Origin: Panopea generosa
Taxonomy: Eukaryota > Mollusca > Bivalvia > Adapedonta > Hiatellidae
DNA length: 64,000 nt
NCBI GenBank assembly: GCA_029582155.1
Contig: CM055895.1
Span: forward strand, 19,083,004-19,147,003
Direction of reading: 5' to 3'
In this document: positions 1 to 62,930 of the stretch, piece after piece
Position numbering within the stretch: the first letter of the stretch is position 1
Layout of the letters: every line of letters begins with the position of its first letter
The notes under the pieces: model-generated
Seen by the model: the letters and a program-made list of their open reading frames with translations, nothing else
Told to the model about the DNA's origin: nothing
Database searches by the model: none
Position numbers and translations under genes: made by a program

Positions 1-1611
1 CTAAATATTCAATCAAGCAAACAGGCAATTTAATCATATTAAAATGCACAGTTTTACGAGTTCTACAAAAACTGTCTTACATAATTCCATGTAAAGTAAA
101 AAGTTTATTTGGAGTTCAAACCAAGCAAAAACACTAAGAATTGTATTTCACAATGAAATACTTTAAAATCTAAATTCCTCACTTAGAATACTTTATAACT
201 GTTCAAAGCAATGGCAGCATAGAAAAATTATCCTCTCTAGGGAATAGTACAGTGATAAAGGGGTATTCTTTACCAAAGCGTTTATTCTCTTACTCTTCTA
301 CCAAATCCACCAGAAGATCAATTTAAAACAGTAAATAATAGTATAGACAAATTATTATTGGATAAAAAATCTGATAAAAACAAATGAAAAAACAAAAATT
401 CAATATTTTGAAATGGATGCCCTCAAAATGATAGATATTTATAAAGTTGTGAAATCATTAAAATCAAACTTGACAAAAATACTTTTTGATACTTTTAATA
501 ATGGACTACTTTTTTATATAAACAAATTCGACAAATTCTGCAGGAAAACATTCGAAAGTGACCTCAGTATTAGTGATCTTCAACATCTATATCCAAAAGA
601 AAGGCTTTTTTCAAAGCATTGCTATTTTAAATACATGACCGAAAAGAAAAAGACTGCATTGGTAAAAAAAATGGAATAATTCAAAAATAAAAGTAGTAGG
701 TAACAAGACATTTTTTTAACAACACTTGGTATGATAGAGGAACACAATATTGTGAGCATTTATATGATTGTAGGAAACATCAACTTCTCCGACTTTATTG
801 AATTATATGCATAACCGGAACATTCTTTTATTTTTTATGCATCTTTGATTTCGAGTATTCTCAAAGAATGGAAAACACTTAATCAGAAAATATCCGCAGA
901 TAAGAAACATCAAAAAGAAACAAATAAACACATTTAATATGATTTCAAATTAAAGACAGATGGGAACAGTTTTTCAATACTCCCCAGGTAGGTAGGAAAT
1001 ATATTTATACATTGCCTTTTAACTCAACCGTTAATACAGAACTTCGTAGGTTCCAATACAAATATTTTATGCTGATTATACCTACATATTGATATATCTT
1101 CAAATGTATCTTGACAAAGTCAAATTTGTACGATTTTTGCAGTAGTTACATTTAAACAGTACAGTAAACCATAGTTTTAGGGAATGTCACAATATTCAAC
1201 AGTTTTCGTCGAAACTCAATATATTTTTATCACTTTTAAATATTAACATATCATAGATCTTTTAACAGTTACTTTTGGTGTAAAGGAGGGAAAGGTTTAC
1301 TAACTGCCCTTATCAATTTTATTGTAATAAGTGGTAAGTCTTTCAAATTCAGAAGCAAATACATTAATACAACTCCATGTTTAAACTAGTTCAAAACTTA
1401 ATTGAATAAACCAATTAAAATTGAAAAACACATTGCTCTAATTAAGAATAAGTAAGAAATTCATAACCGGAAATGGGCACCTTAAATTTTCTAACATGTT
1501 ATGTTAGAAATAGTATTTTTCAAAATAAAACACAACTGAGACATCTTGGCATTATTCTAATACTATTCTCACAATTTCACTACTTTTTAATACTGTGTGG
1601 CATATGAAGCT
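1..1611. other. 3' flank of PAPSS copy A, no gene seen
   Basis: AT-rich sequence downstream of the copy A stop codon. An 88-codon open frame at 413-679 (+) has no recognisable domain and low-complexity, Lys/Phe-rich composition, so I do not call it. The near part must hold the 3' UTR of copy A. A minus-strand AATAAA (plus TTTATT) at 1318-1323, about 290 nt past the stop, is a candidate polyadenylation signal. Similarity to copy B ends about 20-30 nt past the stop, so one edge of the duplicated block, or a replaced 3' UTR, lies here. Confidence 0.5.
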
Positions 1612-10923
<9,312 letters not shown>

Positions 10924-11897: not shown

Positions 11898-11940
11898 ATA
11901 TACAGGTCATAGACTGTATGGTTGACCTGATTATTTGAGT

Positions 11941-13900
11941 AACTAGCATGATCAGAACTGCCATTCTTCCTCAAGTGACTGGCATGATCAGAATCAACAT
12001 TCTTCCTCAAGTGACTGGCATAATCAGAACCATCATTATTCCTCAAGTGACTGGCGTGATCAGAACCGCCATTCTTTCTCAAGTGACTGACATGATCAGA
12101 ACCACCATTCTTCCTTAAGTGACTGGCATGAACAGAATCACCATTCTTCCTCAAGTGACTGGCATGGTCAGAACCGCCATTCTTCCTCAAGTGACTGGCA
12201 TGGTCAGAACCACCATTCTTCCTTAAGTGTCTGGCATGATCAGAACCAATATTCTTCCTTAAGTGTCTGGCATGATCAGAACCAATATTCTTCCTCAAGT
12301 GACTGGCATGGTCAGAACCGCCATTCTTCCTCAAGTGACTGGCATGATTAGAACCATCATTCTTCTTTAAGTGTCTGGCATGATCAGAACCACCATTCTT
12401 CCTCAAGTAACTGGCAAGATCAGAACCACCATTCTTCCTCAAGTGACTGGTATGATCAGAACCATCATTCTTCCTCAAGTGACTGGCATGATCAGAACCA
12501 TCATTCTTTCTCAAGTGACTGACATGATCAGAACCATCATTATTCCTCAAGTGACTGGCATGATCAGAACCATCATTATTCCTCAAGTGACTGGCATGAT
12601 CAGAACCGCCATTCTTTCTCAAGTGACTGACATGATCAGAACCACCATTCTTCCTTAAGTGACTGGCATGAACAGAATCACCATTCTTCCTCAAGTGACT
12701 GGCATGGTCAGAACCGCCATTCTTCCTCAAGTGACTGGCATGGTCAGAACCGCCATTCTTCCTTAAGTGTCTGGCATGATCAGAACCAATATTCTTCCTT
12801 TAGTGTCTGGCATGATCAGAACCAATATTCTTCCTCAAGTGACTGGCATGGTCAGAACCGCCATTCTTCCTAAAGTGACTGGTATGATTAGAACCATCAT
12901 TCTCCCTTAAGTATCTGGCATGATCAGAACCAATATTCTTCCTCAAGTGACTGGCATGATCAGAATCAACATTCTTCCTCAAGTGACTGGCATGATCAGA
13001 ACCATCATTATTCCTCAAGTGACTGGCAATGACAGAGCCGCCATTCTTTCTCAAGTGACTGACATGATCAGAACCACCATTCTTCCTTAAGTGATTGGCA
13101 TGAACAGAATCACCATTCTTCCTCAAGTGACTGGCATGGTCAGAACCGCCATTCTTCCTCAAGTGACTGGCATGGTCAGAACCACCATTCTTCCTTAAGT
13201 GTCTGGCATGATCAGAACCACCATTCTTCCTCAAGTGACTGGCATGATCAGAACCAATATTCTTCCTTAAGTGTCTGGCATGATCAGAACCAATATTCTT
13301 CCTTAAGTGTCTGGCATGATCAGAACCAATATTCTTCCTTAAGTGTCTGGCATGATCAGAACCAATATTCTTCCTCAAGTGACTGGCATGGTCAGAACCG
13401 CCATTCTTCCTAAAGTGACTGGCATGATTAGAACCATCATTCTCCCTCAAGTGTCTGGCATGATCAGAACCACCATTCTTCCTCAAGTGTCTGGCATGAT
13501 CAGAACCACCATTCTTCCTCAAGTGACTGGCATGAACAGAACCACCGTTCTTCCTCAAGTGACTGGAATGATCAGAACCATCATTCTTCCTCAAGTGACT
13601 GGCATGATCAGAACCACCATTCTTCCTCAAGTAACTGGCATGACCCGAACCACCATTCTCCCTCAAGTGACTGGCATAATCAGAACCACCATTCTTCCTC
13701 AAGCGCCTGGCATGATCAGAACCACCATTCTTCCTCAAGTAACTGGCATGACCCGAACCACCATTCTCCCTCAAGTGACTGGCATGATCAGAACCACTAT
13801 TCTTCCTCATGTAACTGGCATGATCAGAACCACCATTCTTCCTCAAGTAACTGGCATGATCAGAACCACCATTCTTCCTCGTGTAATTGGAATGATCAGT
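11941..13900. repeat. 36-bp minisatellite, about 54 copies, upstream of PAPSS-A
   Basis: The unit contains aagtgactggcatgatcaga and ends accaccattcttcct; period 36. Because 36 is divisible by 3 and the unit has no stop codon in some frames, long frames stay open on both strands (minus RKNGGSDHASHL, plus MIRTTILPQVTG); I regard these as artefacts. Most units carry GTGACT, but units at both edges (11940 and about 13620-13880) carry GTAACT, the form that dominates copy B. A multi-unit block starting cattctttctcaagtgactg recurs at about 12071, 12611 and 13045, a higher-order pattern. The same unique flank (gtcaagatcctggacca) ends this array and the copy B array. Confidence 0.95.
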
Positions 13901-14144: not shown

Positions 14145-16720
14145 TGTTTAGTTTAAACATATTTTATTGCATAATTCACATAGCAAACAGGTTGGGCCAC
14201 AAGTTCTAGCAACATTAGTTACGGCCCTCCCCTTTCAATATACAAATAACATTAGAATCAAGATGGCAATTTTAACAATCAATAGGATGTAAACCAACAA
14301 TAAAATTGAAGAGATAAATAAAGAAAAATAAATAAATAAGGTGAGAAAAAGAGAGAAAATACATAATATGTTTTCAAGTGCTGTCATAATATCGTTCCAA
14401 TGCTTTGAAGGGCTGCATAAAATTGGGCATGATGCCGAGAGTCAATTGTTGACAAAACGTTTCGTGTCTTTAATGTATTGTTGTACTTGTGTAAATATAA
14501 ATGTATTTGTGTCACTGGTATATGTACTCTTACCAAATAATAACACTTGTGTACTTAAGGGATGAAAACGGCGTGTGGAACGAAAAAGACGAAGTCGTTC
14601 ATCAGTATATATAGAACATTGCATAAAGTAGTGCTCGGCGTCTTCTTTTTCATTACCGCATCCGTCGCATTTTGCATCAAGTGTTAAAGAATTTAAAAAT
14701 GTATCAAACTTAAGATGACTACATCCGTTTCTCAAACGAGCGTGGAAAACTGATAAAATTCGACTACCAGTTAGATAATACGATGGTACTATTTGCGTTT
14801 TAAAATACATGTTTGTTATATGAGTTTTAAATATTGATAGTGTCTCTGAGTTACGAATGTACTCGGGAAGTGTATTCCAAATAGATACGCATGACGGAAT
14901 AAACGAATTTGCAAATAGTTGTGTTCTTGTGTTAAAAACAACATAATCGGAAGAATTTCGTAAGTTGTAAGGTGTATTTACTCCTACTGTTTCTGGAAAA
15001 AGAGAACATAAATAATCGGGTAGAATTCCTGTTTTAAGTTTATATGCAATAATATATTTTTGATATTTTCTTCTTTCTGATAGCGATAACCATCCGATTT
15101 CGGTGTATAACTTATTTATAGAAACTGAACGCGTCAAACCAGTAACCACTCTAGCTGCTTCGTGTTGTATTTTTTCTAGTTTGTCTTTTTCATATTGGGA
15201 ACAATTATCAAAAACAATTGATGCATATTCAAAAACTGGTCGCAGAAATGATATATATATTTGGTTTAGAGATTTCCGATTAAGTGTAAATTTGATTTTC
15301 CGCATCATGCCTAAAATTTTTGAAGCTGATGAAACAATATTATTTATGTGTTGATGCCATTTTCCATCATGACTAAAAGTAACACCTAAATGTTTATGGT
15401 GTTCTACAAAATTAACTAAAACATTTTCAAACAATAAATTTGGATTTGAAACATTTCTATTTAGAGTTAAAAGTACATGTATAGCTTCAGTCTTTTGGGG
15501 ATTAAAATTCACTAACCATTGTTTTGCCCACTTTGATATAACGATCAGATCATTATTGATTATACCTTCTAAATCTGTTAAATTTGAAGATGTAAAAGCA
15601 AGAGATGTATCATCTGCAAATATTCGTGTAATACTTAACAAAATTTCGGCTATATCATTAATGTAAATTAAAAAGAATAAAGGACCTAATACAGAACCTT
15701 GGGGAACTCCGGCAGTTGTTTCTTTTATTTCTGAGAAACTATTACCTATAAATACTCTTTGTTCACGTTTGTTTAAATAACTGTCGATCCAATTATGAAG
15801 ATTACCATTTATACCATTTTGCTTTAATTTGAACAAAAGACCTTTTAACCACACGCGATCAAATGCTTTCGATACATCACAGAATACCATACAAGTGAAT
15901 TGTTTATTATCTATGCCTTGACAAATTTGATGATATATATCTAAAAGTTGGTAAACCGTGGAATGTCCTTTGGGAAATCCAGATTGTAACTTATAAATGA
16001 GGTTATTATCAACAAGAAAATTATATATATGTTTGTACACAATTCTTTCCATTAACTTGCCAATACAGCTTAAGAGTGAAATTGGTCGATAATTAGACGC
16101 TAGGTTTGTTTTACCTTTTTTGAAAAGTGGCATTACTAGGGCTGATTTCCATAAATCTGGAAATTCACATTTGATTAATGATCTATTAAATAACAATACT
16201 AGAGGTTTAGAAATACTATATTTTGTATACTTCAAAACTTTGTGACTTATTTTATCATTCCCAACAGATTTGTTAGGGTCAAGGATGTCAATCGTATCTT
16301 CTATTTCAGACTTTGTTATAATTATATTAGAAAGAAAATGATAAGTTTTCGAGTTTTCATTTGGAAATGTAATATTAGTTTCATTACTGATTGTTGAAAT
16401 AGAAATGAAATAGTCGTTCAAACAATTTGCCTTTTCTTCGTCGTTATAAAAGTAGGTTTCCTCCCCAGCGTCTGAGGTTCTTTTTAAGGGGGGTATGGTT
16501 TCAGTATTTTTGTTTTCCTTAATGATTTGTTTAAGAACTTTCCAGTAAAGTTTTGGATTTGTATTTCTGCTGTCTGAAACTAAAGCTTCTATATTATTAA
16601 AGTACTGTTCTTTAGCATGCGTTTTCAAATTATTAACTTTGTTTCTTAACTGTTTGTATTTAGTCCAGTCGTCTGTTCTTTTCGTTCGTATTGATTTTAT
16701 TGATATACTACAGTATAATG
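14145..16720 (-). mobile_element. 5'-truncated jockey/CR1-like LINE
   Basis: Contains the reverse-transcriptase frame described separately, then a ~300-bp 3' UTR ending near 14145-14170 with gcaataaaatatg on the minus strand. Coding similarity runs upstream to about 16715 (KRTDDWTKYKQLRNKVNN) and then stops in ctacctacctaccc-type sequence. The apurinic endonuclease region expected upstream is absent, so the insertion is 5' truncated, as is usual for LINEs. I could not identify target-site duplications. Confidence 0.85.
14442..16628 (-). CDS. LINE ORF2 fragment: reverse transcriptase and C-terminal CCHC
   Basis: About 728 codons, uninterrupted, with no start ATG of its own; it is the 3' part of a longer ORF2 and is probably not expressed alone. 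Visible RT blocks: YRPISLLSCIGKLMERIV, FCDVSKAFDRVWLKGL (first catalytic Asp), GVPQGSVLGPLFFLIYINDI, and the catalytic IFADDTSLAF. Thumb-like and C-terminal segments follow (KYQKYIIAYKLKTGILPDY, FIPSCVSIWNTLP), then a Cys/His motif CDGCGN...HYFMQC near the end. This arrangement is typical of the jockey/CR1 group; the exact clade needs a tree. An intact frame over 2 kb implies recent insertion. It is retrotransposon sequence, not a host gene. Confidence 0.9.
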   Translation of the reverse strand: MKTHAKEQYFNNIEALVSDSRNTNPKLYWKVLKQIIKENKNTETIPPLKRTSDAGEETYFYNDEEKANCLNDYFISISTISNETNITFPNENSKTYHFLSNIIITKSEIEDTIDILDPNKSVGNDKISHKVLKYTKYSISKPLVLLFNRSLIKCEFPDLWKSALVMPLFKKGKTNLASNYRPISLLSCIGKLMERIVYKHIYNFLVDNNLIYKLQSGFPKGHSTVYQLLDIYHQICQGIDNKQFTCMVFCDVSKAFDRVWLKGLLFKLKQNGINGNLHNWIDSYLNKREQRVFIGNSFSEIKETTAGVPQGSVLGPLFFLIYINDIAEILLSITRIFADDTSLAFTSSNLTDLEGIINNDLIVISKWAKQWLVNFNPQKTEAIHVLLTLNRNVSNPNLLFENVLVNFVEHHKHLGVTFSHDGKWHQHINNIVSSASKILGMMRKIKFTLNRKSLNQIYISFLRPVFEYASIVFDNCSQYEKDKLEKIQHEAARVVTGLTRSVSINKLYTEIGWLSLSERRKYQKYIIAYKLKTGILPDYLCSLFPETVGVNTPYNLRNSSDYVVFNTRTQLFANSFIPSCVSIWNTLPEYIRNSETLSIFKTHITNMYFKTQIVPSYYLTGSRILSVFHARLRNGCSHLKFDTFLNSLTLDAKCDGCGNEKEDAEHYFMQCSIYTDERLRLFRSTRRFHPLSTQVLLFGKSTYTSDTNTFIFTQVQQYIKDTKRFVNN

Positions 16721-16894
16721 GATGGTAACTTCTCCCCCACTAAAACTATATATTTACTTACCTACCTACCCACCCTAAATGGCATAGGTCAGAATTTGCA
16801 AACAAAAAATGTTTAAAGGTGCAGCCTAAAGCAGGACTTCATTTATAGAATTATGCAACCCAAAAGTAAAAGAAATTTCAAAATTTTCTCCTAA

Positions 16895-18445
16895 GGTTTA
16901 GGACTGAGCTGGATTCAAGCCCATGACCCAAACAGTGAGAGTTAATTGGTCATAAGGAGACAGTGCCTTAAACCCCTCGGTCAGGGAGTTAATTGGTCAT
17001 AAGGAGACAGTGCCTTAAACACCTCGGTCAGGGAGTTAAGTGGTCATAAGGAGACAGTGCTTTAAACCCCTCGGTCAGGGAGTTAATTGGTCATAAGGAG
17101 ACAGTGCCTTAAACCCCTCGGTCAGGGAGTTAATTGGTCATAAGGAGACAGTGCCTTAAACCCCTCAGTCAGGGAGTTAATTGGTCATAAGGAGACAGTG
17201 CCTTAAACCCCTCGGTCAGGGAGTTAATTGGTCATAAGGAGACAGTGCCTTAAACCCCTCAGTCAGGGAGTTAATTGGTCATAAGGAGACAGTGCCTTAA
17301 ACCCCTCGGTCAGAGAGTTAATTGGTCATCAGGAGACATAGCCTTAAACCCCTCGGTCAGGGAGTTAAGTGGTCATAAGGAGACAGTGCCTTAAACCCCT
17401 CGGTCAGGGAGTTAATTGGTCATAAGGAGACAGTGCCTTAAACCCCTCGGTCAGGGAGTTAATTGGTCATAAGGAGCGGGTGCCTTAAACCCCTCGGTCA
17501 GGGAGTTAATTGGTCATAAGGAGACAGTGCCTTAAACCCCTCAGTCAGAGAGTTAATTGGTCATCAGGAGACATAGCCTTAAACCCCTCGGTCAGGGAGT
17601 TAAGTGGTCATAAGGAGACAGTGCCTTAAACCCCTCAGTCAGGGAGTTAATTGGTCATAAGGAGACAGTGCCTTAAACCCCTCAGTCAGGGAGTTAATTG
17701 GTCATAAGGAGACAGTGCCTTAAACCCCTCGGTCAGAGAGTTAATTGGTTATCAGGAGACATAGCCTTAAACCCCTCGGTCAGGGAGTTAAGTGGTCATA
17801 AGGAGACAGTGCCTTAAACCCCTCGGTCAGGGAGTTAATTGGTCATAAGGAGACAGTGCCTTAAACCCCTCGGTCAGGGAGTTAATTGGTCATAAGGAGC
17901 GGGTGCCTTAAACCCCTCGGTCAGGGAGTTAATTGGTCATAAGGAGACAGTGCCTTAAACCCCTCAGTCAGGAGTTAATTGGTCATCAGGAGACATAGCC
18001 TTAAACCCCTCGGTCAGGGAGTTAAGTGGTCATAAGGAGACAGTGCCTTAAACCCCTCGGTCAGGGAGTTAATTGGTCATAAGGAGACAGTGCCTTAAAC
18101 CCCTCGGTCAGGGAGTTAATTGGTCATAAGGAGACAGTGCCTTAAACCCCTCGGTCAGGGAGTTAATTGGCCATAAGGAGACAGTGCCTTAAACTCCTCA
18201 GTCAGGGAGTTAAGTGGTCATAAGGAGACAGCGCCTTAAACCCCTCGGTCAGGGAGTTAAGTGGTCATAAGGAGACAGTGCCTTAAACCCCTCGGTCAGG
18301 GAGTTAATTGGTCATAAGGAGACAGCGCCTTAAACCCCACGGTCAGGGAGTTAAGTGGTCATAAGGAGACAGCGCCTTAAACCCCTCGGTCAGGGAGTTA
18401 AGTGGTCATAAGGAGACAGTGCCTTAAACCCCCCGGTCAGGGAGG
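16895..18445 (-). repeat. 47-bp minisatellite (about 32 copies) made from a SINE tRNA-like head
   Basis: The unit is gggagttaattggtcataag followed by gagacagtgccttaaacccc and tcggtca; 31 periods of 47 bp fit between 16984 and 18440 with one single-base deletion near 17968. On the minus strand each unit begins TGACCGAGGGGTTTAAGGCA, which resembles the A-box region of the tRNA(Ser/Leu)-like SINE head seen at 61270-61300 (TGGCCGAGTGGTCTAAGGCA). A single B-box-like gggcttgaatcc lies at about 16912-16924, on the 3' side of the array in SINE orientation. The array therefore looks like tandem amplification of the 5' half of a SINE. Confidence 0.85.
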
Positions 18446-19263
18446 ACATCAAATCTTATTTCTGTACATAAATATTCCTCATGGATACATCAAGTGAATG
18501 TTTTGATTTTATCAGGTCTGCAAGATAATCAGAGGGAAATCCCCTAGAAATCAATGAAGAATGACACATTGATATTGTATACCGGTAAGTCAAAATATCA
18601 GGACATGCTTCACAACTAGCGTTGAAAAATAAATTGCTTAGTTGCTATTTCTTATCTGTCTATATCTGATATTTAATTAATTCATGTTACAGATGGACTT
18701 GAGTACTGAAATTCACTCATCAGAAATTATTGTACATAAAAAACAATTAATTTAACTGTTATGTCTTATAATTTTGTAGTAAAAGATCATGCAAAACTTG
18801 GATAAATGTGGATAAATTTCTTGTAGACAAGCAATTAAAGTCGCCTTTTTATACATTTCTTTAAATATAGATTTAACATCTGAAGACCAATTATTCTTAC
18901 ATGTAAAATAATCATTATAAAAATAAAAAAATATTTCTATAACCGTACAGCATTAAGTTAACATCTTATATGTGGGGTGGCGGTACGTTTCCCCAAACCC
19001 ATATTGCCTTGAAAGACTGGTGTAGATTTACATTTATGTACAACTAAAAAGAATTTGATAACATGATTAGGTAGTTTGTCAATTTTTTAATTAACCTTTG
19101 CTGAAGATGACTAATCCATGAAAGGTACAATAATAAAATATCTTTTCTTTTTTTTACTATATGTAGATAACATTAATTCACTTTTATTAAACAAGTTTGA
19201 TACACGACACAATAAAAAAAACTACTGGCTGATTCTGTTTCAGTAAAATCTAGATATTCATTA
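18446..19263. other. AT-rich spacer, nothing recognised
   Basis: No coding frame, tRNA-like fold or tandem repeat seen. Confidence 0.5.
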
Positions 19264-21606: not shown

Positions 21607-22564
21607 CTACTTTAAAGTTTTCACTTCTTCACAATGTAAACTGGATTTTGAAATAAAACGAGACGTTTTTCTGTATTTTCTGTATTTTCCCATAGAACAC
21701 TGTCAATTTATATTAAAATAAATATGTAAGCATATAAAAAGAACCCTCAAATGACATTACAGTCAAATAAATATCAGTAACAAATAAATATAACATCAAT
21801 TTGAATATTGTAAAATATTCAATTTGTTTTAAATAATTTCATATCGAGTCTGTTCAATTAACGATTGAAAATAGGCATAAAACACAAACCCTGTTGTATA
21901 TAAAAACATTCATTTTAAAATGTACACTTCAAAAACATATCAAACTTGATATTTCTAACAATGTTAGATGATTGTTATAATGCAAAATTAGTTCCACAAA
22001 CAATTATTATCACAGATTTAAAAAAAGAATTTCTTGAAATAATCTCTAATAGTACATTCTGTCAATAATTACAATCCCTGTGAATATATATATTTGTTTT
22101 ATAAAAGATAATAAAATATTTGTCACTAAATAAGGATTAAATAACGAATAAAGATGTAAGAATGTTTGGTCCACAGTATGATGATTTAAACAGATAAGTC
22201 GAGGAATCCCATCGGTCTGGTTGATGCCTAAATTTATATAATCAAAATTCTTATGATAAAAGTTTAATAAATAATTTGTATATTCACAAAGATAAACATA
22301 TCCTTTTCAATTAATGTGCTCCAAGACTTGACAAATTCAAGATATTTTTAAACAATAGTGTATAGAAATGTTTTTTTCTTCTGTTGTCTTTTTTCATTTC
22401 ATTAAATCAATTATAAAATAACTGAAATTCCCTATTAAATTAAAATATAACGTAACAAAAGTCCAACTGCTTAAATAGATGTTATGATAACAGCATAAGA
22501 GTTGTGTAAGACATGGATAAATTCCCCCAGTGTCTACGGGAAATACTGTGTGGCGTATGCAGCT
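21607..22564. other. 3' flank of PAPSS copy B
   Basis: AT-rich. Must contain the copy B 3' UTR. It is not similar to the copy A flank beyond about 25 nt past the stop codon. No gene seen. Confidence 0.5.
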
Positions 22565-37412
<14,848 letters not shown>

Positions 37413-38650: not shown

Positions 38651-38959
38651 ATCAAGAACTATTAAATCTAATTTTGGTATTAAGTTTGAAATGTTAACAT
38701 GTTCCAATACCCATTTTCTGATGACAAACCTGATGCAATCACTTATATAATTGCACAAACTATTTGCTTTTAGACCCACTTAGTGCAGTGTTGACATTTT
38801 GCATAATCACCATAGAAAGACAAAAAAATACAATTAGTTTAACAACAAAACTTGTCTAAATGATTGTATGATAAAGATATTTGAGAACACTTGACAAAAC
38901 CTTTCAGCTAAGCAATCAAGCCAAAATAAGTCTAAATAAAGAAATGTTTCAGAACCACA

Positions 38960-40245
38960 ATTCTTCAGCATGTTACTGGAATGATCAGAACCACCATTCT
39001 TCCTCAAGTAACTGGCATGATCAGAACCACCATTCTTCCTCATGTATCTGGCATGATCAGAACCATCATTCTTCCTCAAGTAAATGGCATGATCAGAACC
39101 ACCATTCTTCCTCAAGTAACTGGCATGATCAGAACCACCATTCTTCCTCAAGTAACTAGCATGATCAGAACCACTATTCTTCCTCATGTATCTGGCATGA
39201 TCAGAACCACCATTCTTCCTCAAGTAAATGGCATGATCAGAACCACCATTCTTCCTCAAGTAACTGGCATGATCAGAACCACCATTCTTCCTCAAGTAAC
39301 TGGCATGATCAGAACCACCATTCTTCCTCAAGGAGCTGACATGATCAGAACCACCATTCTTCCTCAAGTAAATGGCATGATCAGAACCACCATTCTTCCT
39401 CAAGTAACTGGCATGATCAGAACTGCCATTCTTCTTCAAGTAATTGACATGACCAAGACTGCCATTCTTCCTCAAGTATCTGGCATGATCAGAACCACCA
39501 TTCTTCCTCAAGTAAATGGCATGATCAGAACCACCATTCTTCCTCAAGTAACTGGCATGATCAGAACCACCATTCTTCCTCATGTAACTGGCATGATCAA
39601 AACCATCATTCTTCCTCAAGTAACTGGCATGATCAAAACCATCATTCTTCCTCAAGTAACTGGCATGATCAGAACCACTGTTCTTCCTCATGTAACTGGC
39701 AAGATCAGAACCACTATTCTTCCTAATGTACTTGGCATGATCAGAACCATCATTCTTCCTCAAGTAACTGCCATGATCAGAACCACCATTCTTCCTCAAG
39801 GAGCTGACATGACCAGAACCGTCATTCTTCCTCATGTACTTGGCATGATCAGAACCACCATTCTTCCCCATGTAACTGGCATGATCAGAACCACCATTCT
39901 TCCTCATGCAACTGACAATATCAGAATCACCATTCTTCCTCAAGTAACTGACAATATCAGAACCACCATTTTCTGAATAACTGGCATGATCAGTACCACC
40001 ATTCTTCCTCAAGTAACTGGCATGATCAGAACCACCATTCTTCCTCATGTAACTGGCATGATCAGAACCATCTTTCTTTCTCAAGTAACTGGCATGATCA
40101 GAACCACCATTCTTCTTCAAGTAACTGGCATGACCAGAACCACCATTCTACCTCAAGTAACTGGCATGACCAGAACAACCATTCTACCTCAAGTAACTGG
40201 CATGATCAGAACCACCATTCTTCCTCAAGTAACTGGCTTGGTCTG
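38960..40245. repeat. 36-bp minisatellite, about 35 copies, upstream of PAPSS-B
   Basis: The same unit as 11941-13900, but almost all copies read aagtaactggcatgatcaga, giving SDHASYL rather than SDHASHL in the minus open frame. The flank gtcaagatcctggaccactt is shared with A, so this is the duplicated array. Open frames on both strands are a by-product of the 36-bp period. Confidence 0.95.
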
Positions 40246-47180: not shown

Positions 47181-47544
47181 CGACTCTACTCATATTTATA
47201 TTAAAAGTGTGTTTTAGTGTTAGTAAGTGTGTATAGTACGAGAAGATTTATATATGAAAAGGTATATGTTATATGTGATGTTGGGTGTTGTATTTGGTTT
47301 GTGTAACGTATGTGGAATTTTGTACTGTGCGGGGGCTCAATATGAGAATATAAATTTTTGTTAACATGAGAAGATTTGTTTTTATGAGAATATGTTTGCA
47401 TGAGAAGAATTGTCTAAATGTGTGTTTGTATGACATTATTAAGATTTGTTTGCATGTGAAGTTTTATTTGTAAAAGAAGATAAATTTTGCTAGTATGAGA
47501 ACATTCGTTATATTTTTAAATGTTGTCGAAAACTTTTTTAACAA

Positions 47545-47690
47545 CATTTCAGGTCATATATGGCATATCCAGCTTTATTGGAAGGAAGACCTCAAAATGA
47601 ATCCAAATAGAACCACCGCCATTCTGCAAAGGACTGGCAAACTTTCTCACGCATTGTTTTTGGAGTGAATGGGACTCAAACCTACTACCC
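47545..47690 (-). mobile_element. Truncated tRNA(Ser/Leu)-like SINE
   Basis: Body phrases atggcatatccagctttatt, gaagacctcaaaatgaatcc and ctggcaaactttctcac, and the B-box end gggactcaaacctactaccc. The A-box end is lost and the 19/16-bp array follows. Confidence 0.6.
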
Positions 47691-47694
47691 TTGT

Positions 47695-50600
47695 ATGAGA
47701 AAATTTGTAAGTATATGAAAAGGTTTACAAGTGTTGCATGAGAAAATTTGTTAGTATATGAAAAGGTTTACAAGTGCTGTATGAAAAGGGTTGAGGTGTA
47801 TAGGAAGATGCATGTTGTATGAGAACATTTTGTAAAGTATGAAAAAGTTTGGGTTGTATGAGAAGGTTTGCACTGTATGAGAAGGTTTGTGATGTATGAG
47901 ATGTAAGCTGTATGTGAAGGTTTGCACTGTATGAGAACGTTTGTGTTATATGTGAAGGTTTGTGTTGTATGAGTAGGTTTGTGTTGTATGAGATGTATGC
48001 TGTATGAGAAGGTTTGTACTGTATGAGAAGGTTTGTGTTGTATGAGATGTATGCTGTATGAGAAGGTTTGCACTGTATGAGAAGGTTTGTGTTGTATGAG
48101 ATGTATGCTGTATGAGAAGGTTTGCACTGTATGAGAAGGTTTGTGTTGTATGAGATGTAAGCTGTATGTGAAGGTTTGCACTGTATGAGAACGTTTGTGT
48201 TATATGTGAAGGTTTGTGTTGTATGAGAAGGTTTGTGTTGTATGAGATGTATGCTGTATGAGAAAGTTTGTGTTGTATTAGAAGGTTTGTGTTGTATGAT
48301 ATGTATGCTGTATGAGAAGGTTTGTACTGTATGAGATGTATGCTGTATGAGAATGTTTGTACTGTATGAGAAGGTTTGTGTTGTATGAGTTGTATGCTGT
48401 ACGAGAAGGTTTGTGTTGTATTAGAAGGTTTGTTTTGTATTAGAGGGTCTGTGCTGTATTAGAAGGTTTTTACTGTATGAGATGTATGCTGTATGAGAAG
48501 GTTTGTACTGTATAAGAAGGTTTGTGTTGTATTAGAAGGTTTGTGTTGTATGAGATGTATGCTGTATGAGATGTATGCTGTATGAGAAGGTTTGTGTTGT
48601 ATGAGATGTATGCTGTATGAGAAGGTTTGTGCTGTATGAGATGTATGCTGTATGAGAAGGTTTGTGTTGTATGAGATGTATGCTGTATGAGAAGGTTTGT
48701 ACTGTATGAGAAGGTTTGTGCTGTATGAGATGTATGCTGTATGAGAAGGTTTGTGTTGTATGAGATGTATGCTGTATGAGAAGGTTTGTGCTGTATGAGA
48801 TGTATGCTGTATGAGAAGGTTTGTGCTGTATGAGATGTATGCTGTATGAGAAGGTTTGTGTTGTATTAGAAGGTTTGTGTTGTATTAGAAGGTTTGTGCT
48901 GTATGAGATGTATGCAGTATGAGAATGTTTGTACTGTATGAGAAGGTTTGTGCTGTATGAGAAGGTTTGTGCTGTATGAGATGTATGCTGTATGAGAAGG
49001 TTTGTGTTGCATGAGAAGGTTTGCTGTAAGAGAAGGTTTGTACTATATGAGAAGATTTGTGTTGTATGAGATGTATGCTGTATGAGAAGGTTTGTGTTGT
49101 ATTAGAAGGTTTGTACTGTATGAGAAGGTTTGTGTTGTACTAGATGTATGCTGTATGAAAAGGTTTGTGTTGTATTAGAAGGTTTGTGTTGTATGAGATG
49201 TATGCTGTATGAGAAGGTTTGTACTGTATGAGAAGGTTTGTGTTATATGAAAAGGTTTATGTTGTATTAGAAGGTTTGTGCTGTATGAGAAGTGTTGTGC
49301 TGTATTAGAAGGTTTGTGCTGTATGAGATGTATGCTGTATGAGAAGGTTTGTACTGTACGAGAAGGTTTGTGTTATATGAAAAGGTTTATGTTGTATTAG
49401 AAGGTTTGTGCTGTATGAGAAGGTTTGTGTTGTATTAGAAGGTTTGTGCTGTATGAGATGTATGCTTTATGAGAAGTTTTGTACTGTAATAGAAGGTGTG
49501 TGCTGTATGAGAAGTTTTGTACTGTATTAGAAGTTTTGTACTATAGTAGAAGGTTTGTGCTGTATGAGAAGGTTTGTGTTGTATAACAAGGTTTGTGCTG
49601 TACGAGATGTATGCTGTATGAGAAGTTTTGTACTGTATTAGAAGGCTTGTGTTATATGCAAAGGTTTATGTTGTATTAGAAGGTTTGTGCTGTATGAGAA
49701 GGTTTGTGTTGTATTAGAAGGTTTGTGCAGTATGAGAAGGTTTGTGCTGTATTAAAAGGTTGTTGTATGAGATGTATGCTCTGAGAAGTTTTGTACTGTA
49801 ATAGAAGGTTTGTGTTATATGAAAAGGTTTATTTTGTATTAGAAGGTTTATGCTGTATGAGAATTTTGTGTTGTATTAGAAGGTTTGTGTTGTATGAGAT
49901 GTATGCTGTATGAGATGGTTTGTGTTGCATGAGAAGGTTTGCTGTATGAGATGTATGCTGTATGAGAAGGTTTGTGTTGTATTAGAAGGTTTTTGTTGTA
50001 TGAGATGTATACTGTATGAGAAGATTTGTACTGTATGAGAAGGTTTGTGCTGTATTAGAAGGTTTGTGTTATATGAAAAGGTTTATGTTGTATAATATTA
50101 AAAAGTTTGTGCTGTATGAGAAGTTTTGTGTTGTATTAGAAGGTTTGTGCTGTATGAGATGTATGCTGTATGAGAAGGTTTGTGCTGTATGAGAAGGTTT
50201 GTGTTGTATTAGAAGGTTTGTGCTGTATGAGAAGTTTTATGCTGTATTAGAAGGTTTGTGTTATATGAAAAGGTTTATGTTGTATTAAAAGGTTTGTGCT
50301 GTATGAGAAGGTTTGTGTTGTATTAGAAGGTTTGTGCTGTATGAGATGTATGCTGTATGAGAAGGTTTGTACTGTATGAGATGTATGCTGTATGAGAAGG
50401 TTTGTACTGTATGAGAAGGTTTGTACTGTATGAGAAGGTTTGTGCTGTATGAGATGTATGCTGTATGAGAAGGTTTGTGTTGTATTAGAAGGTTTGTGTT
50501 GTATGAGATGTATGCTGTATGAGAAGGTTTGTACTGTATGAGAAGGTTTGTGTTATATGAAAAGGTTTATGTTGTATTAGACGGTTTGTGCTGTATGAGA

Positions 50601-51246: not shown

Positions 51247-52785
<1,539 letters not shown>

Positions 52786-59965: not shown

Positions 59966-60403
59966 TTCCGGTGGTCCAATGGAACACTGCTGTATTTCCA
60001 TATTTGTTTATGGGTAGATAGAATTGTAACAGTGTAAATTACGCAGAGCCTTGCTTTGGTTCAGGTAAGCTAAACAAGAGAGTCAGAATGGCCCTAAATC
60101 ACTCACCTGTGATAGAGTAAACAATGCCAGAGACAGCAATTTTTGCAGGTGCTAGAGTGTACATAAATTCATATAATGCGACTTTTGTCGATTCAAGAAC
60201 AGTAACACCCGCTATTGATTATCCAAATTGACCAGTTCATAAACTTGTCCCAAGACATTATAGTTATAAAACAACTGTTTAAGATTAATGACGATCAAAT
60301 ATAAACTGTGAATGCTAGAGTGCACACATCAAATACACAGAATTTTTAACAATACAAAGGCCATAACTGTGACAATAGTTATCGGATTTGACCAGTTAAA
60401 CAA

Positions 60404-61079
60404 CTTGGTCAGTGACAAATAACATTGAAAATGCATACTGAACCTGACCCGTGACAAATAACACTGAAAATACATACTGAACCTGGTCAGTGACAAATAA
60501 CACTGAAAATGCATACTGAACCTGGTCAGTGACAAATAACACTGAAAATACATACTGAACCTGACAAGTGACAAATAACACTGAAAATGCATACTGAACC
60601 TGGTCAGTGACAAATAACACTGAAAATACATACTGAATCTGGTCAGTGACAAATAACACTGAAAATACACACTGAACCTGACAAGTGACAAATAACACTG
60701 AAAATACATACTGAGCCTGACAAGTGACAAATAACACTGAAAATACATACTGAACCTGGTCAGTGACAAATAACACTGAAAATACATACTGAACCTAACA
60801 AGTGACAAATAACACTGAAAATGCATACTGAACCTGGTCAGTGACAAATAATACTGAAAATACATACTGAACCTGGTCAGTGACAAATAACATTGAAAAT
60901 ACATACTGAACCTAGTCAGTGACAAATAACATTGAAAATGCATACTGAACCTGGTCAGTGACAAATAACACTGAAAATACATACTGAGTCTGGTCAGTGA
61001 CAAATAACATTGAAAAATCATACTGAACCTGGCCAGTGATAAATAGCACTGAAAATACATACTGAACCAGATCAGTGAC
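60404..61079. repeat. 39-bp minisatellite, block 1, about 17 copies
   Basis: Unit cagtgacaaataacactgaa plus aatacatactgaacctggt. The 13-codon period gives long minus frames (MYFQCYLSLTRFS); these are artefacts. Confidence 0.95.
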
Positions 61080-61083
61080 ATTT

Positions 61084-61300
61084 TTTTTTTAATGGAGTTT
61101 ATTGTCCTTTTCAACACATTTCAGGTTATATATGGCATATCCAGAAGACCTCAGACTGAGTAGAACCACCATCCTTTCCCAAGTAAATAGAAACTTTCTC
61201 ATATGAAGTTTTTGGAGCGAGTGGGACTCGAAACTATGACCTTAGCAATGAGAGGTAAGTGATCTTGAGATGATGCCTTAGACCACTCGGCCACAGAAAA
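61084..61300 (-). mobile_element. tRNA(Ser/Leu)-like SINE, best-preserved copy, inside the 39-bp array
   Basis: Minus-strand order: head tggccgagtggtctaaggca (A-box, about 61275-61294), B-box gtttcgagtcccactcgctc (about 61212-61232), then body gaaagtttctatttacttgg, gatggtggttctactcagtc and atatccag, and a poly-A tail (plus T-run at 61080-61090). Array sequence lies on both sides. Confidence 0.85.
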
Positions 61301-61304
61301 CCCT

Positions 61305-62220
61305 CTGGTCAGTGACAAACAACACTCAAATACATACTGAACTTGACCAGTGACAAATATTATAACACTGAAAATACATACTGAACCTGACCAGTGACAA
61401 ATAACACTGAAAATACATACTGATCCTGGCAAGTTGACAAATAATACTAAAATACATACTGAACATGACAAGTGACAAATAACACTGAAAATACATACTA
61501 AACCTGGTCAGTGACAAATAACACTGAAAATACAAACTGAACCTGGTCAGTGACAAATAACACTGAAAATACATAGTGAACCTGACCAGTGACAAATAAC
61601 ACTTAAATACATACTGAACCTAGTCAGTGACAAATGACACTGAAAAATACTGAACCTGACCTGAGACAAATAACTCTAAAAATACATACTGAACCTGACA
61701 AGTGAAAAATAACACTAAAATACATACTGAATCTGGTCAGTGACAAATAACACTGAAAATACATACTGAACCTGGTCAGTGACAAATAACACTGAAAATA
61801 CATACTGAGCCTGGTCATTGACAAATAACACTTAAAAACATACTGAACCTAGTCAGTGTCAAATGGCACTGAAAATACATACTGAACCTGACCAGTGACT
61901 AATAACACTAAAATACATACTGGACCTGACAAGTGACAAATAACACTAAAATACATACTGAACCTGACCAGTGACAAATAAGACTGAAAATACATACTGA
62001 ACCAGGTCAGTGACAAATAACACTAAAATACAAACTGAACCTAGTCAGTGACAAATAACACTGAAAATACATACTGAACCTGGTCAGTGATAAATAACAC
62101 TGAAAAAACATACTGAGCCTGGTCAGTGACAAATAACACTAAAATACATACTGAACCTAGTCAGTGACAAATGACACTGAAAATACATACTGAACCTGGT
62201 CAGTGACAAATAACACTAAA
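61305..62220. repeat. 39-bp minisatellite, block 2, about 23 copies
   Basis: Same unit as block 1 but with more single-base deletions (cactaaaatacatac) that vary the period between 36 and 39 bp. Confidence 0.93.
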
Positions 62221-62755
62221 AATATAGATAAACCAAAAATAACCAGACAAATTTGACATCAATAGCGCACACCTTACTGCCATAATTGATGATGCTTTGA
62301 TATAATTTACACAATGTGGAGATAAATATTGAATTGTTCAGCACCAACAGCTCTATTGATGCCACAATTTTGTATAAATAATTCTTGAAATATGAGAATA
62401 AAAATAATCCGATTAAGAGTAACATCTTGCATTAAACTAATGAATAGAATACATTTGACGTAGACAGGGCGACAGCTGGTATAAAGTGCTATCATAAATT
62501 CATATATATCAATATTTATTTACAATTTTTTATATCTGTATATGCAATTCAGTATTGGTCAAGATTGATTCTACTTACATGTATAGAGTAATATGAGGGA
62601 ATATCCAACACCCGTGTTTATCCAAACGATTTAAAATGTGCTATTTAAAAGCACTCTACATGTACTATATTTGTTTTCAGACCCTAGCAAAGCAGCTGCT
62701 ACATTAACACATCCAGCTAACGTTCCATGACAATATATGACTGCAGTTTTGATTA
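62220..62755. other. Spacer, nothing recognised
   Basis: AT-rich; no gene or repeat recognised. Confidence 0.45.
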
Positions 62756-62756
62756 G

Positions 62757-62930
62757 TATGGGTTTAAAGCCATTTTCAACAAAATTTAAGTTTATATATT
62801 ATCCAGTTAAATTCATGGTAGAAGACCTCAGCATGAATCAGAGTAAAACCACCATCCTTTCCCAAGTAACTGGCTAACGTCCTCACATAAACTGTTTTGA
62901 GCGAGTGGGACTCGAACCTACATACATTTT
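62757..62930 (-). mobile_element. Truncated tRNA(Ser/Leu)-like SINE
   Basis: Body as at 61084-61300 (cagagtaaaaccaccatcct, gagcgagtgggactcgaacc); it stops just past the B-box and the A-box is missing. Confidence 0.65.

Follow-up and report, generated by a model that had tools for sequence, protein, structure and literature searches.

Introduction

Between two minus-strand copies of a PAPS-synthase gene (ATP-sulfurylase and APS-kinase exons) in the genome of Panopea generosa lies a tandem array of 47-bp units, in which A-box-like sequences are stacked ahead of a single B-box-like sequence. This locus raises the questions of whether the array was derived from a SINE, where its units were multiplied and whether they serve transcription by Pol III. 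The DNA analysed here (the window) is one stretch of 64,000 nucleotides, C2:19083004-19147003, and the assembly used for genome searches comprises 1.474 Gb in 39 contigs.

Structure of the Array

An array of period 47 was detected by TRF at window positions 16939-18444 on the minus strand (32.1 copies, 94% matches), and splitting at unit starts on that strand gave 32 units, whose spacing is 47 in 30 of 31 cases and 46 in the remaining one. These units represent 15 distinct sequences, and their pairwise identity averages 94.3%. Units nine apart are unusually alike, the value being reached in 13 of 5000 permutations, where lag 9 is the best of 19 lags inspected and is therefore mildly selected; this excess likeness suggests that blocks of several units have been copied within the array. 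The parts of the array and a related copy are listed below, where SINE positions refer to the consensus described in the next section.

18441..18447, minus strand: GTCCTCC before unit 1, fits SINE 3-9 (SINE 5' end); weak, 85/500 shuffles
16939..18444, minus strand: 47-bp tandem array of 32 units, each corresponding to the head's A-box half (SINE 6-55), by TRF, unit splitting and SINE alignment
16973..16983, minus strand: A-box-like TGACCGAGGGG in the last unit, with TGAC replacing TGGC
16870..16938, minus strand: single-copy part comprising the head's B-box half and the beginning of the SINE body (SINE about 55-126; BLAST ends at SINE 117)
16911..16921, minus strand: B-box-like GGCTTGAATCC, with two mismatches to GGTTCGANTCC
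61084..61310, minus strand (same as the array): unexpanded single copy of the same SINE family

The SINE Family

When the last unit and its 3' flank were searched against the genome, 31 of the 70 matches fell in the array itself and 39 elsewhere; a SINE consensus was built from the best 20 of these 39 together with the window copy at 61084-61310. The consensus is 237 bp long, starts with GGGTCCTCCGTGGCCGAGTGG and has an A-rich end, and its head carries the A-box TGGCCGAGTGG and the B-box GGTTTGAGTCC. A strict A-box is in place in 10 of the 21 copies and a strict B-box in two, and no copy has both. The Rfam tRNA model gave no score at five SINE-bearing loci with E up to 1, and 0 tRNA genes were found by ARAGORN in the window. 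Since a tRNA origin is suggested by the A-box and B-box only, we call the head tRNA-like.

Target-site duplications of 8-12 bp after the A-rich tail were found in three of the 20 copies (L047, L048, L049); for seven no 5' end was recognized by the pattern used, for eight no duplication was found and one had a weak 7-bp match. Nineteen of the 20 copies examined, as well as the window copy, are not arrays of the head. The exception is L044 (C18:23933985-23934869), where the entire head (SINE 3-86) is repeated in at least five tandem copies; its 17-bp match in the search for duplications was taken as its own repeat. Further SINE copies were seen within or beside unrelated minisatellites at window positions 60402-62224, 47513-47700 and 62758-62920 (39-bp, 19-bp and 121-bp arrays).

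Homology Between the Array and the SINE

When aligned with the consensus, the window element consists of SINE 3-55, repeats of 6-55 and a final 6-117, the match being colinear at the last unit. As judged by this alignment, the array represents a SINE head with 47 bp of it multiplied and with the B-box half following. A lone 47-bp unit scored 63 against the consensus (best of 500 dinucleotide shuffles, 30), the last unit with the 3' flank 126 (33), the 3' flank alone 63 (33) and the 5' flank with unit 1 75 (31). The initial annotation had described an amplification of the A-box half of a SINE about 32 times, and this is borne out by 32 units that correspond to SINE 6-55 and by a unit score reached in 0 of 500 shuffles. 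The one B-box half that it placed at the 3' end, in SINE orientation, was likewise recovered: SINE 6-117 runs on from the last unit, and GGCTTGAATCC lies at 16921-16911. A likeness confined to an A-box stretch of about 20 bp would have spoken against its reading; in the alignment of unit and SINE the likeness goes beyond that stretch by a wide margin. Its limits for the array, 16895-18445, were close, while the SINE likeness on the minus strand spans about 16870-18447.

On the 5' side, 18 bases at the edge of the array, when tested alone against the SINE, gave no significant match (the score was reached in 85 of 500 shuffles). The last four bases of GTCCTCC, which precedes unit 1, recur at most unit ends, and GTCCTCC is therefore weak evidence for the SINE 5' end at this place; because the SINE has few bases 5' of the unit start, a longer match is not to be expected. 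At the array locus, no sequence from the SINE's 3' half was recognized, and a full SINE insertion there is unsupported. A search for a target-site duplication around the array found none, the longest flank match being 9 bp and lying 1.2 kb off. An unexpanded twin was sought in the duplicated PAPSS region, where the matched duplication stops before the array, and no unexpanded allele of the locus was seen.

SINE-Derived Arrays in the Genome

For searching similar arrays, 50-bp quarters of the SINE consensus were tripled and used as queries, which favor units near 50 bp. Loci were scored from matches over at least 90 letters of the tripled query, which thus cross a unit junction, and same-strand matches within 10 kb were merged. 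Similar arrays elsewhere, for which the initial annotation had proposed to look, are numerous: among the matches listed, there are at least 53 SINE-derived array loci, with 19 from the A-half, seven from the B-half, nine from the core and 18 from the tail. The A-half count consists of 18 loci from the tripled-quarter matches listed and the C12 locus from a three-unit query, so that 18 loci exist besides that in the window. Besides the window array, 24 of the 53 loci were fetched and mapped, and 28 are known from the search matches alone. Outside this count are L044, an 86-bp head array that does not appear among the matches listed for the 50-bp queries, and two 36-bp arrays in the window (11938-13899 and 38949-40237). 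After merging of likely duplicates, about 44 loci remain; these duplicates are C3 0.29/4.48M and 0.62/4.12M, a C8 pair, a C10 trio, four on C21 and C6 58.07/58.43M, the grouping of C3 0.29/4.48M being based on shared flanks and the others inferred from match patterns. Two array pairs occur in inverted order on one contig (C3:288875/622902 and C3:4120181/4483614), which may reflect either an inverted duplication or an error of the assembly.

With the three-unit query, A-half arrays were found at C12:22.23M (49-bp units), C3:4.48M (48), C11:28.51M (51) and C10:45.66M (43). Two A-half arrays are long according to the search matches, C10:45650631-45658729 (about 8 kb) and C11:28507274-28519858 (about 12 kb). 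Three of the four A-half arrays whose 3' end was reached end in the B-half, namely those in the window, at C12:22.23M and at C3:4.48M; the exception is on C11, and the sequence read on C10 stops inside the array. The C12 array runs into a B-half with GGCTCGAGCCC, and seven bases on another whole SINE follows; the C3:4.48M array runs into a B-half with a decayed B-box. The array at C3:0.29M, likely a duplicate of that at C3:4.48M, enters a B-half as well. A view of the arrangement in the window as a single case is not borne out, given the 18 other A-half loci and these three arrays, which also enter the B-half.

The other quarters have been multiplied, too. At C18:11634100-11638667 (L079, L070), at least 97 SINE B-halves of 47 bp stand in tandem, with the 5' end beyond the sequence read. 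SINE sequence is present on both sides of the array at C13:44.22M, C7:59.54M, C3:27.53M and C17:42.97M; that at C7:59.54M reads SINE 1-208, then 152-208 repeated, then 152-234. In the tail-derived 55-bp arrays (L055-L064, L072-L074), the junction CCTGA/CTCA (SINE 208 to 152) was found at nine of 12 loci examined, with variants of it at L062 and L073 and a different one at L061. This common junction may be a recurrent breakpoint, or it may belong to a SINE variant spreading with an internal repeat. The A-half as a special target of amplification was considered and rejected: the other quarters gave at least seven, nine and 18 loci against at least 19, and such counts cannot rank the segments.

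The window array itself is ordinary, and the interesting part is the genome-wide breadth of SINE-born arrays. Arrays have arisen from each quarter of one SINE, at no fewer than 53 loci, and many of them are births of satellites with the parent sequence still adjacent. The question of what starts a satellite is made testable through such replicates within one genome, and the worth of the window array is that of a pointer to a genome rich in SINE-born arrays.

Origin of the Array

We consider that the 47-bp array is a SINE-derived minisatellite formed in place, inside one SINE copy, and assign to this reading a probability of about 0.85, a value kept from being higher by the weakness of the 5' side. 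In this reading, a SINE whose tRNA-like head contained A-box and B-box would have been inserted between the two PAPS-synthase gene copies, and 47 bp of that head (about SINE 6-55) would first have been duplicated inside that copy. The duplicate would then have grown to 32 copies through slippage or unequal exchange, partly as multi-unit blocks, and the remainder of the head would have stayed single at the 3' end. The Pol III boxes would already have been decayed in the founder unit and multiplied in that state. Since SINE copies are numerous, chances for the first duplication are numerous as well. The point where the founder SINE begins is presumably that indicated by GTCCTCC, and the array is probably neutral, as we infer. 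In the window element, neighboring copies overlap by CTC, and two CCTC sites, 47 bp apart in a 239-bp version of the SINE consensus and 46 bp apart in the 237-bp one, were considered as a candidate seed. Seeding at short repeats is not claimed here: the repeats at unit junctions have a mean length of 1.0 bp, where random placements give 0.64 (p 0.18; eight usable of 14 unit types, without extra bases).

Two other accounts of the array have been weighed. The array may have arrived already expanded, as a dispersed satellite or as part of a larger mobile element such as a Helitron-like carrier; carriers of this type are discussed for mollusc tandem repeats in the relevant part of PMC11121367, and one junction common to many loci, as observed for the tail-derived 55-bp arrays, would accord with it. 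For the array in the window this is very unlikely, because among nine scored candidates the three-unit query gave tandem matches above 80% at the window locus only, the 3' flank is the SINE itself and the four other A-half arrays differ in unit length (43, 48, 49 and 51). A chance likeness, in which an unrelated minisatellite happened to include a tRNA-like 20-mer, is refuted for practical purposes, since 0 of 500 shuffles scored as high as the unit, the 3' flank or either of the two longer pieces.

Pol III Boxes

The A-box consensus is TRGCNNAGYNGG, and binding of TFIIIC depends mainly on the B-box. In a motif scan, neither a strict A-box nor a strict B-box was found in the window array. After its first base, each of the 32 units reads TGAC, where the A-box consensus needs TGGC, and the B-box GGCTTGAATCC is degenerate, with the two mismatches listed above. 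Sister arrays retain strict boxes in various numbers: 27 strict A-boxes per about 51 units in the C12 A-half array (one lying in the following SINE), 32 strict A-boxes per about 37 units in the 1.6 kb read of the C10 A-half array, and, over 4.8 kb of sequence from the C18:11634100 B-half array, 80 strict B-boxes, 50 of which match at 11/11.

Variation of the boxes was measured by wrap-around alignment in six arrays; an earlier splitting by fuzzy anchors had lost units and made the anchor sites look invariant. The conservation rank of the box segment is 20/47 for C18, 18/43 for C10, 43/49 for C12, 25/47 for the window array, 45/51 for C11 and 11/48 for C3:0.29M, which is mid or low in five of the six and higher in the last. 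Per-site variation in the box and in the rest of the unit, given here as a description, is 0.053 vs 0.059 for C18, where the two are about equal, 0.031 vs 0.032 for the window array and 0.016 vs 0.032 for C3:0.29M. In three of the six arrays the box is slightly less variable than the remaining sites, clearly only in C3:0.29M, and in the other three it is more variable. Selection on the boxes finds no support here, since site variation in the six arrays fails to single them out.

The units had been regarded initially as potential Pol III A-boxes, and this designation is unsupported for a sequence with TGAC in 32 of 32 units, no strict box and an A-box about as variable as the remainder of the unit. 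A working Pol III unit, in which the stacked A-boxes would raise recruitment of TFIIIC and TFIIIB to the single B-box and yield a ladder of transcripts, has some geometry in its favor: the last A-box-like site is 62 bp from the B-box-like GGCTTGAATCC, no T4 run lies inside the array and the first one is about 28 bp past the B-box, which makes read-through conceivable. Such a unit is nevertheless hardly credible with an array devoid of strict boxes, an A-box conserved no more than the rest of the unit and a mismatched form of the B-box on which TFIIIC binding mainly depends. Judging from the letters of the boxes, Pol III function of the window array is unsupported and the array is probably without it; the geometry has been kept, and transcription would be possible in principle. 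We give very little credence to the wider idea that a subset of the stacks, such as the C18 B-halves and the C10 A-boxes, would form ordered sites for Pol III factors with bulk TFIIIC binding, as candidate chromatin boundaries or factor sinks; parts of the SINE would then regularly have been made into satellites, and the window array would be a decayed example.

Comparison with Known Repeats

A stack of A-halves ahead of one B-box was not found described in the open-licence papers searched. Alu and B1 are 7SL-derived SINEs. Minisatellites of man and mouse have likewise grown from Alu or B1 copies, for which slippage or unequal exchange was proposed; they differ in the shorter units named, e.g., (GGCAGA)n, and no A-box-half unit is described in the passages concerned (PMC6947457, PMC9659126).

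Tandem amplification of SINE segments has already been published for squamate reptiles, whose SINE-derived satellites (sSats), Squam1/2/3, are the known kind closest to the window array; the authors are uncertain whether such satellites are restricted to squamates (PMC10702118). Among the matches listed, this paper is the only one that uses “SINE-derived satellite” or a similar term in that sense, and others use “ssat” otherwise. The window array has the traits of an sSat: its units are part of a SINE that exists as single copies elsewhere, there are at least four alike units with a longer terminal one, and loci are many. These traits apply with two specifications, namely that the longer terminal unit is SINE 6-117 on the 3' side, with only seven fitting bases on the 5' side, and that SINE arrays are present at 53 or more loci, the 47-bp variant itself being at one.

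According to the parts of PMC10702118 that deal with them, squamate sSats resemble the window array in that the unit is part of a SINE and the terminal unit is longer and enters the rest of the SINE; likewise, several segments of one SINE are used, unit subvariants alternate and identity in long arrays is at least about 90%. They differ in their reptile host, and the likeness drawn here is one of array anatomy. The common snake sSat unit is 67 nt and includes the B-box, whereas the window unit is the A-box half (PMC10702118). Preference for subtelomeric regions, another sSat trait, is a matter of all loci together; the single locus in the window lies well inside its contig, 19.1 Mb into 100.3 Mb. 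As characterized in the pertinent text of PMC11121367, PcH-sat of the limpet Patella caerulea, derived from Nin-SINE, is also a mollusc tandem repeat containing part of a SINE, and it differs in its 179-bp unit, its share of about 10% of the genome, its pericentromeric location and its being without both Pol III boxes. Hy/Pol III of Hydromantes, Xenopus satellite 1/OAX and newt PolIII/TAN are amphibian tandem repeats said to include a tRNA-like Pol III region (as cited in PMC9659126 and PMC10702118); they differ from the window array in unit length, which is about 200 bp or greater, and their SINE origin is inconclusive according to PMC10702118.

Neighboring Genes and Repeats

The surroundings of the array in the window are as follows.

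1589-9355 and 22542-36860, minus strand: tandem duplicate of the PAPS-synthase gene, with exons of APS kinase and ATP sulfurylase
14442-16739, minus strand: LINE reverse transcriptase, a 765-codon open frame matching RVT_1, which adjoins the 47-bp array downstream on the same strand
11938..13899, minus strand: 36-bp array of 54.5 copies by TRF, with units from the SINE core (116-151), a SINE-derived minisatellite in its own right
38949..40237, minus strand: 36-bp array of 35.9 copies by TRF, paralogue of 11938-13899 in the duplicated PAPSS region

The 36-bp arrays are identical to SINE 116-151 at 29 of 34 positions in the aligned part (0/500 shuffles), and the flanks of both gave no score against the SINE. 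The two are paralogous because the PAPS-synthase gene region has been tandemly duplicated. In addition, a perfect (AGAC) microsatellite was found by TRF at window positions 51247-51499, with 63 copies and 100% matches.
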